64,000 nt of DNA from Planctomycetaceae bacterium (GTDB lineage: Bacteria; Planctomycetota; Planctomycetia; Planctomycetales; Planctomycetaceae): positions 1-64,000 of the forward strand of contig WFTL01000057.1 of NCBI GenBank assembly GCA_015485495.1, in the 5' to 3' direction. The notes beneath the pieces were generated by a model, which had not been told where the DNA came from, made no database searches, and was given only the letters and a program-made list of their open reading frames with translations. How positions within the stretch are numbered: position 1 is the first letter of the stretch; each line of letters opens with the position of its first letter. Of the stretch, positions 39,513 through 41,879 are shown one piece after another. The translations under genes were made by a program, and so were the position numbers.

Positions 39513-40090
39513 TCGGCTGGACTTTCTGAATCGACCGTGCCGGACGCAGCAGCCCGCCCCCGAAACACAGTCCGAGCACGAGGCGGGCGGAGTCTACAGG
39601 CGGACCGGCTGCCGTCAAAGAACCGAAAAGCCATGCCGTGCGTTTCCCAGTGTTGGGGCGCTGAACTCCCGGCTGCGGCACCCCGCTGAGCCGGATGCCA
39701 CCGCCGGGCTGTCCGGCTGTTCGTTCCGAGTTCCGGCGTCCGGGTTCCCGTAATGATTTGCTTTCCGTCCTGGGACATTTCATCATGGGGCCGTTCTGAT
39801 TCTTCTGCCGGCTCATACGCCGATATCGGACCACGGGGCCAGGTTCGTCGGCTCATACAGATTTCTGAACATGTCGTACCGTGCTGCCTGTCCGTCGTTC
39901 TCCTGCTGCTGGCCGGCCGACAGGGGACCGGTTGCGACGGTCCTGACCGTGATTTTCAGAAAATCCATGGCTTTTCCCGATCCGCTCCGGACGCGATTCT
40001 GGACGTCAGTCGGTGAACCTGTCATTGTTTGTGCCCTGTTTTGCGAATGACCCAGTCCGTTTCGAACCCCTGTCCCATCGTCACAGCGAC
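39513..40090. other. Long intergenic stretch upstream of the ATP synthase operon
   Basis: 578 bp between atpZ and the structured leader at 40091. It holds one possible 70-aa leftward frame (39813-40025), listed separately, and a perfect 7-1-7 palindrome GATTTTCAGAAAATC at 39951-39965. A 109-aa leftward frame at 39505-39834 has no convincing coding character. The ATP synthase promoter should lie here, but I found no clear -35/-10 pair. Confidence 0.4.
39813..40025 (-). CDS. Possible small protein, low confidence
   Basis: 70 aa from the ATG at 40025, or 51 aa from an inner ATG (about 39968) preceded by GGAAAAGCC. The end reads YDMFRNLYEPTNLAPWSDIGV. I recognise no family. Codon use is acceptable, but there is no independent support. 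The palindrome at 39951-39965 encodes its DFLKI segment. Confidence 0.3.
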   Translation of the reverse strand: MTGSPTDVQNRVRSGSGKAMDFLKITVRTVATGPLSAGQQQENDGQAARYDMFRNLYEPTNLAPWSDIGV

Positions 40091-40224
40091 TCCGGTGATG
40101 ATCACCGGAATGACGAAGTCGGTCGATTTTTCGTCACATTCCCGTCTTTCATGTGACCGAGTGAAAGGAGCCTCGGCTTTCCGGGGCTGACGGCACTCAG
40201 GAAATCGAGAGACACTGACGTCTC
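40091..40224 (+). promoter_or_regulatory. Structured leader with overlapping, mutually exclusive stems
   Basis: Several inverted repeats are packed upstream of the gene at 40243. TCCGGTGATGATCACCGGA (40091-40109) is a perfect 9-1-9 palindrome. TGACGAA (40111-40117) pairs with TTCGTCA (40130-40136). GTCACAT (40133-40139) pairs with ATGTGAC (40151-40157). The last two stems share four bases and exclude each other. GAGAC (40209-40213) and GTCTC (40220-40224) form a further stem just before the start codon region. The arrangement suggests an RNA switch or attenuator, or an operator plus leader. No known riboswitch class was recognised. Confidence 0.5.
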
Positions 40225-40242
40225 ACAGTTCTGGTGGAATTT

Positions 40243-41538
40243 ATGCCTCGGAATGCCCGGATTTTCAGCGCACTGCCCGACCTGCGCAGGGCGGTCGGCC
40301 TGTGGGTCCTGCTGGCTGCCGTCGGACTCCGCGCTGAAGATCCTCTGCAGGAAGAACGGATCGCCTACCGTGCAGCGCAGTTCCGACTGCACCGGAAGAT
40401 CGTCAATCTGAATCACGATCTCAATGAAGGTGTGCAGCGACCAGGATCTCGAAGTGAACGGGTGTTTCGTCAAAAGCTGACTTCGGGAGTGGAACCTCGG
40501 GATCCGGAGTTTGAGGGATTTCGTGAGGTTCTTCAGTTTCGTGTTTTTCGGCTGACGGCCCCGGAAGCTCGAAATGATCCGGCCAGACTGAAACGGATCA
40601 AATCCGATCTGGAAAGAGACCTCAGGCAGGCCGGCAGCCAGATCGGATCAGACCGGTCCAAACGTCAGTTTCGGGAACTCGTATGCACGGAAATGCTGAA
40701 GGCACTCAGGAAGGTGCTTGAAAACAATTTCGTCGCCCGGTCCATTGCCATTGAACTGCTGCCTCTGATGTTCGTCACAGACGGCAGGGAGACGTCTCCT
40801 GATGAGCGGCAGATTCTTCCGGCCGCAGGAGAGACGCTGATCAGACTTCTCAGAGATCCTGAACAGCCGGACACGATCAAGGCGCGTGTCGCTCAGAGTA
40901 TGAAGCAGTATATGATGCGGGCTTCAGCCGGTGCGCGGCTGGAAATGCAGTTCGCCGAAGCCGTCCTGGAGACGCTCAGGTCGCCTCTTCCTGACGACGA
41001 TTTTCAGGTGATGCTCCTGGATGTTCTCACCGTCGTCCGGACACCACGACAGCCGGCGGGAGACAAACGGCCTCTGGCGTTTGAGGCTGCCGTGGTCGTT
41101 CTGCAGGATCAAAGACGGGCCCTGTTCGTTCGCTGTGCTGCTGCCGAAGTTTTCGGCCGGGCCGGGTATGACAGGCAGATCCGCTTCGATCCCCTCGCCT
41201 GGAAGATCGCTCAACTGACACTCGAAACCGGTACGGCCTTCAATGAAAATCCAGACGCACGTTTGTGGTGGTTTTCCGGCGACCGGCTGTTTCGCGCCTT
41301 CCATCATGCGGAAAAGGAACGCGCCCGGGGGCCGATGCCGGACGGCATGCTCAACCGGGCCCCTTCATCCGAAGTTGTCAATGGCGCCTACGCGAGAATC
41401 CTGCCCGTCGTAGGAGCCCTGATTTTCCGGCATCGGCAGATACCGGATCAGCCTCTGAAGGATCTGGCTGGCTGGGTGGGAGAAAATCGACCGGATGATC
41501 TGACGTACGATCCGGCCGCCCCCCCGGTCCAGCCCTGA
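40243..41538 (+). CDS. Exported helical protein behind structured leader, unknown function
   Basis: 431 aa from the ATG at 40243; a GTG at 40234 would add three residues. The N-terminus (RRAVGLWVLLAAVGLRAEDP) is a signal peptide cut near Ala-Glu. The rest is mostly helical and charged, with possible HEAT-like repeats (AGETLIRLLRDPEQPDTIKARVAQSMKQY, LDVLTVVRTPRQPAGDKRPLAFEAAVVVL). No catalytic motif is visible. Codon use has somewhat more A/T-ending codons in the first third than the neighbours. It has no operon partner; the next rightward gene is far away. Confidence 0.8.
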   Translation: MPRNARIFSALPDLRRAVGLWVLLAAVGLRAEDPLQEERIAYRAAQFRLHRKIVNLNHDLNEGVQRPGSRSERVFRQKLTSGVEPRDPEFEGFREVLQFRVFRLTAPEARNDPARLKRIKSDLERDLRQAGSQIGSDRSKRQFRELVCTEMLKALRKVLENNFVARSIAIELLPLMFVTDGRETSPDERQILPAAGETLIRLLRDPEQPDTIKARVAQSMKQYMMRASAGARLEMQFAEAVLETLRSPLPDDDFQVMLLDVLTVVRTPRQPAGDKRPLAFEAAVVVLQDQRRALFVRCAAAEVFGRAGYDRQIRFDPLAWKIAQLTLETGTAFNENPDARLWWFSGDRLFRAFHHAEKERARGPMPDGMLNRAPSSEVVNGAYARILPVVGALIFRHRQIPDQPLKDLAGWVGENRPDDLTYDPAAPPVQP

Positions 41539-41651: not shown

Positions 41652-41879
41652 TCAGATGACGCCGCCGTGAACGCGATAGGGAGTCGCCAGGTCCGGAAGC
41701 TCCAGTCCCCAGATTCGCTCCCAGATCTCCGGAATGTGCCGCAGCCCTTCGGATGAGTAGATGAGCTGTCGGGCACGAATGTCAGGGTTCGGATTCCAGA
41801 TCGGCATCGCGCAGCCGGTGTGAACCAGGCTGCAGACGAACAACAGGCCTGCCAGCAGACGTGGTCGCAGATTCATCAT
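41652..41879 (-). CDS. Small lipoprotein
   Basis: 75 aa. Lipobox VHTGC with the lipidated Cys23 after a hydrophobic signal. The mature part ends LRHIPEIWERIWGLELPDLATPYRVHGGVI, a pattern I recall from short conserved planctomycete lipoproteins. It is convergent with the 40243-41538 gene. Function unknown. Confidence 0.75.
   Translation of the reverse strand: MMNLRPRLLAGLLFVCSLVHTGCAMPIWNPNPDIRARQLIYSSEGLRHIPEIWERIWGLELPDLATPYRVHGGVI

Follow-up and report, generated by a model that had tools for sequence, protein, structure and literature searches.

The 5′ leader of a gene encoding an exported helical-repeat protein was analysed in a 64,000-nucleotide stretch of DNA from a Planctomycetaceae bacterium (the window). 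We tentatively consider, at somewhat less than an even chance, that this leader serves that single gene and combines a promoter (element P), a translation-initiation module (element H), a genus-level step in which hairpin 1 and the ribosome-binding site (RBS) compete for the same arm, and a stretch of filler at 40111–40157. The leader element was recognisable across genera in which the encoded proteins share only 27–38% identity; it occurred once per genome and was tied to one gene. The coordinates of the features are given in Table 1.

Table 1. Features of the leader and of the gene behind it (positions in the window)
Feature	Position	Strand	Description and basis
Element P, promoter-like	39996–40029	+	32-sequence logo and strict-motif search; putative promoter
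Putative 5′ leader of the mRNA	40032–40242	+	From the position of P; start presumed a few nt after P
Hairpin 1	40091–40109	+	TCCGGTGA-TGA-TCACCGGA; variant form kept in both same-genus relatives
Candidate anti-RBS arm	40102–40111	+	UCACCGGAAU; 3′ arm of hairpin 1, extended by 2 nt, complementary to 40228–40237
Hairpin 2	40111–40136	+	Private to this genome; within the genus, 52% of cells pair
Hairpin 3	40133–40157	+	Not kept in relatives in the same register; 55% of cells paired
Element H (model R1)	40198–40254	+	Hairpin, 8-nt linker, GGTGG RBS, start codon and first codons; covariance model
Hairpin 4 (stem of element H)	40209–40224	+	GAGAC-ACTGAC-GTCTC; near-invariant across genera
Anti-RBS target	40228–40237	+	GUUCUGGUGG; linker and Shine-Dalgarno-like GGTGG
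Gene behind the leader	40243–41538	+	Predicted 431-aa exported all-helical ARM/HEAT-like solenoid protein

The gene behind the leader and its surroundings

The ATG of the gene is at 40243, with GGTGG in front of it at 40233–40237. The ATP synthase operon lies on the minus strand and extends to 39512, the leader and its gene running the opposite way, and the helical-repeat gene is followed, again on the minus strand, by genes for a small lipoprotein and for HU. The gene order around the leader was kept in both other genomes of the same genus. For the 431-aa protein, searches of Pfam, NCBIfam and PDB sequences found no family, and its structure model showed a confident all-helical repeat fold (pLDDT 88.7), the nearest solved folds of which included many armadillo/HEAT solenoids, with weak E-values. 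An earlier note on this DNA had described the gene as an orphan with a signal peptide. The first description was wrong, since relatives of the protein were found in 140 of the 170 family genomes; the second is plausible, as the model has a hydrophobic helix at the N-terminus (residues about 14–24).

The lipoprotein-like protein encoded at 41652–41879 on the minus strand (75–76 aa, CAMPIWNPxPDIRARQLIYSSEGLRHIPE...) belonged to no NCBIfam family. Its second half was almost identical in the three genomes of the genus, whereas the neighbouring helical-repeat protein was only 37% identical. In the minus-strand leader of the ATP synthase operon, the sequence CCCA-N3/4-TGGGGCGC (39640–39665) was kept in both same-genus relatives (L002 and L004), although much of the intergenic DNA around it was not; this sequence possibly serves the operon as part of its leader or promoter.

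Elements P and H across genera

The comparison included 31 related leaders (32 sequences in the logo), 170 family genomes and a class sample of 397 genomes. A scan of viral contigs for further copies found none, and a scan of genome contigs found two loci, one of which was a contig already present in the set as G002.

Element P has the form ATTCTGGACG-N12-CCTGTCATnnT, with the boxes TTCTGGACG-N12-CCTGTCAT, and is located about 180 bp upstream of the hairpin of element H (40209–40224). In every genus with element H, it was found in front of the helical-repeat gene. The 12-nt spacer was constant in 32 leaders, it being noted that both boxes, in part, and the spacing had been set by the search pattern; the flanks that the search left free were also conserved, namely ATTC before TGGAC, AC before CTGTCAT and T after CATnn. 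The strict form of P (TGGACG-N12-CCTGTCAT) had 29 matches in the 170 genomes, 24 of which were situated before the helical-repeat gene, and the reversed control had one match in total in the same genomes. The distance from P to the ATG ranged from 76 to 325 nt in the relatives. Judged by position and box geometry, element P is most likely the promoter of the helical-repeat gene. With this conserved, promoter-like sequence ending near 40029, the transcript likely covers all four hairpins, and its 5′ end, as judged from P, would fall within the range proposed in the earlier note (40026–40111).

The strict form of P was present as a single copy in its own genome, with no second target; a regulon of P or H was rejected, each of the two elements being single-copy in its own genome in the strict search. 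A sequence resembling P, with a spacer one base longer (CTGGAC-N-ACCTGTC; L050, 1500–1528, contig C152 of the same genome), abuts the ATG of a different gene, the product of which is apparently exported, and represents either chance or a leaderless promoter. When three mismatches to P were allowed, the genome-wide matches exceeded those of the reversed-pattern control. One such looser match elsewhere, L047, was read closely and proved to lie inside the coding sequence of a cytochrome c-type Cys-x-x-Cys-His motif, in which TGTCAT encodes Cys-His; thus, the excess of relaxed matches may be codon-driven rather than regulatory.

Element H is a 57-nt module consisting of a hairpin, 8 nt, GGTG(G/A) and the ATG. 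The covariance model, built from 21 sequences, matched 26 of the 170 family genomes, once in each and always before the helical-repeat gene; these matches came from 5 of the 58 genera of one planctomycete family, and no other genus of the 397-genome class sample contained H. Both H and P stayed with the gene even where the neighbouring genes differed (L003). The sequence between P and H was not conserved across genera, and some leaders of other genera had a total length of only about 70 nt (73–81 nt). Of the 24 leaders with the hairpin, 23 have 8 nt between it and the RBS, and one has 9 nt. Element H thus keeps a constant spacing from the start codon but a variable one from P, which argues for a role at translation.

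In the H stem, 98% of the cells were paired, with a G–U (G–T) wobble at the outer pair in four sequences, and no clear compensatory change was found among the aligned sequences; the stem of L029 (GGGAC/GTCC) may hold one if the gap is placed otherwise. Consequently, covariation does not separate an RNA hairpin from a DNA palindrome here. Control at the DNA level would mean that the palindromes at 40080–40114 (nested GTCA...TGAC and GGTGA...TCACC dyads), together with GAGAC...GTCTC, are transcription factor operators, an explanation that we consider unlikely. It agrees with the correspondence between the genus-conserved block 40078–40115 and the nested dyad and with the near-invariant sequence of the H stem, as expected of a protein site, and palindromes by themselves do not tell RNA from DNA. 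However, a constant distance from the start codon together with a variable one from P would be odd for an operator, the central N6 of H keeps an asymmetric NGA core, the outer pair is a G–T wobble in four stems, and the dyad block reaches into the complementarity with the RBS.

The H stem was lost, with the RBS sequence kept, in 8 of the 32 leaders, all from one genus (L031, L032, L035, L037, L039, L042, L043 and L046; the context GGTGAGTC and ATGCC were retained), which suggests that some lineages can do without the stem. Two other assignments of H were rejected. An extension of the coding sequence is contradicted by an in-frame TGA inside H in the window and in several relatives. A CsrA/RsmA binding hairpin is contradicted by the loops, which read ANNGAN (A-N-N-G-A-N between C and G) in the 21 aligned sequences and contain no GGA, the trinucleotide that CsrA needs in a hairpin loop.

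Inverted repeats, hairpins 1–3 and possible pairing with the RBS

The earlier note had drawn attention to four perfect inverted repeats within 134 bp (40091–40224), and all of them were found: 40091–40098/40102–40109 (8 bp, loop of 3), 40111–40117/40130–40136 (7 bp, loop of 12), 40133–40139/40151–40157 (7 bp, loop of 11) and 40209–40213/40220–40224 (5 bp, loop of 6). The coordinates also confirm its statement that the second and third repeats have bases 40133–40136 in common. Additional overlapping inverted repeats were identified at 40146–40167, 40157–40176 and 40163–40181. With 3194 start positions compared across the window, the 134-bp segment was the richest in perfect inverted repeats, and its repeat density was reached by 1 of 3000 dinucleotide shuffles; after correction for approximately 480 independent segments in the window, the expectation was near 0.16. 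The density is thus striking and noteworthy, and neither overwhelming nor decisive. The folding energy was ordinary (z = −1.7 for 40081–40242 and −0.86 for 40032–40260). In the leaders of the relatives, the enrichment in inverted repeats was not seen (mean P = 0.51), and the leaders as a group were not clearly more folded than shuffles (folding z about −0.9). The idea that a high density of hairpins is conserved in this leader was therefore rejected, as was, in view of the ordinary z values, a generally strong folding. It should be noted that dense hairpins in a single genome can mislead: the conserved hairpin was the least striking by eye.

The switch that the earlier note had proposed between hairpins 40111–40136 and 40133–40157 was not conserved, with 52% and 55% of the cells paired, respectively, in the three leaders of the genus. 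The proposal fails the refuting condition that the note itself had set for relatives, and the short leaders of other genera lack the region entirely. Nested hairpins at 40111–40157 could in principle form a ligand-binding riboswitch or a transcription attenuator, and the overlap of hairpins 2 and 3 at 40133–40136 fits such a device. However, their lack of conservation within the genus largely refutes it, no T run, terminator or Rfam family was found, the leader has no conserved ORF, and the indels within the genus are not multiples of three; we therefore regard this explanation as highly improbable. No terminator-like site, that is, a hairpin followed by a T run, was present on the plus strand in 39718–40300, and an intrinsic terminator or attenuator was rejected because none of the hairpins has a T run after it. 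A search of the window with Rfam 15 gave no match at the gathering score, and the relaxed threshold gave chance-level matches far below gathering, in agreement with the earlier note, in which no known RNA class had been recognised at the hairpins. A conserved leader peptide was likewise rejected, since the indels in the genus alignment, not being multiples of three, break every frame.

Hairpin 1 is situated in the genus-conserved block 40078–40115; 21 of its 24 cells in the genus alignment were paired (87.5%), with one double change. A blind scan of every ungapped helix of 9 or 10 bp in the three-genome leader alignment gave 40102–40111/40228–40237 as the best helix; it pairs in 29 of 30 cells and contains one double change from A–U to G–C. 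When the alignment columns were shuffled, an equally good helix anywhere was obtained in 0.6–1.0% of trials (P = 0.006–0.010), and P was 0.015–0.02 when only helices of the RBS region were considered and the rest was shuffled. Sliding of the anti-RBS partners decreased the pairing from 96% to 29–67%. The complementarity was conserved in three of the three genomes of the genus, and hairpin 1 cannot coexist with a masked RBS, since both use 40102–40109. Such an arrangement is classical for leaders that turn translation on or off. The single-sequence pairing energies were not exceptional (P = 0.06–0.24), and in the window the computed energy of the masked state lay 6.9 kcal/mol above that of the state with hairpin 1. 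An RBS-masking switch at the genus level is thus possible on the basis of three sequences with one double change. The RNA switch upstream of the gene, put forward as a candidate in the earlier note, is thus partly supported: the part that stands is a conserved, mutually exclusive partner (the RBS) for hairpin 1, together with the H module; the part formed by hairpins 2 and 3 does not.

The anti-RBS helix was not found in other genera, where no conserved long helix exceeded chance. RBS masking common to all genera was rejected in favour of one restricted to the genus of the window, and the switch, if real, would therefore be a recent addition upon the older H module. In another genus, L033, L040 and L066 have complements to their own RBS (GGGCCAGGA and GGGCTAAGG versus TCTTGGTGAGCC) about 120–130 nt before the ATG; these are weak singly (P = 0.06–0.5) and perhaps represent an independent masking arm.

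It may also be supposed that there is no switch, so that P is a promoter, H is an RBS with a small stabilising stem and the other hairpins are the result of drift in a G+C-rich leader. This simpler explanation, which seems to us unlikely but deserving of attention, is consistent with the repeat density that is significant in the window and not in the relatives, with the folding z values, with the other genera, which have no conserved long helix beyond chance, and with the leaders of just 73–81 nt. Against it, the anti-RBS helix is at the top of the blind scan, and the genus retains hairpin 1, in which one double change is seen.

Proposed mode of action and comparison with known systems

According to the composite leader that we favour, P would drive transcription, and the mRNA would start near 40031–40036. 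Element H would be the ancestral translation-initiation module, setting or modulating ribosome loading, most likely as an RNA hairpin, given that it is set at a constant distance from the start codon but not from the promoter; a factor bound to H would perhaps mediate this effect. In the genus of the window, hairpin 1 would form first on the emerging RNA and hold the anti-RBS arm away from the RBS, and opening of this hairpin under some condition would allow the 10-bp pairing to mask the RBS. The hairpins at 40111–40157 would be lineage-specific filler. A wider proposal, about which we are doubtful, is that the leader belongs to a new class of gene-specific translational control in planctomycetes, in which a factor-recognised hairpin near the RBS serves, in five genera, a single exported protein with helical repeats, and one genus has added an RBS-masking hairpin upstream. 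Literature searches on leaders, riboswitches and mapped transcription starts of Planctomycetes returned nothing specific, and translational control seems to be little described in this group. A single-copy element that belongs to one gene and is kept across genera thus provides a well-defined case in which to test gene-specific translational control in the phylum.

Element P resembles the promoters of ECF sigma factors in having two constantly spaced boxes, with GGAC approximately 20 nt before GTC (compare GGAAC...GTC). It differs from them in that its −35-like box is TTCTGGACG and not GGAAC, and no sigma factor is linked to P. The −35 box of RpoE from E. coli is GGAACTT (PMC8103513).

Among protein-bound hairpins near the RBS, such as CsrA sites, element H is comparable in its short stem, its 6-nt loop and its fixed position 8 nt before the RBS, whereas its loops do not contain the GGA that CsrA requires. 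With RBS-masking switches, namely, translation-type riboswitches, RNA thermometers and ribosomal-protein leaders, the present leader shares an upstream arm that either closes a hairpin or covers the Shine-Dalgarno sequence. Unlike them, it has no known aptamer, ligand or regulator, its pairing comes from three genomes of one genus, and its calculated masked state is weaker than the open state. The leader may thus be described as a new candidate for a small regulatory leader that would function like RBS-masking leaders and stands outside the described families.
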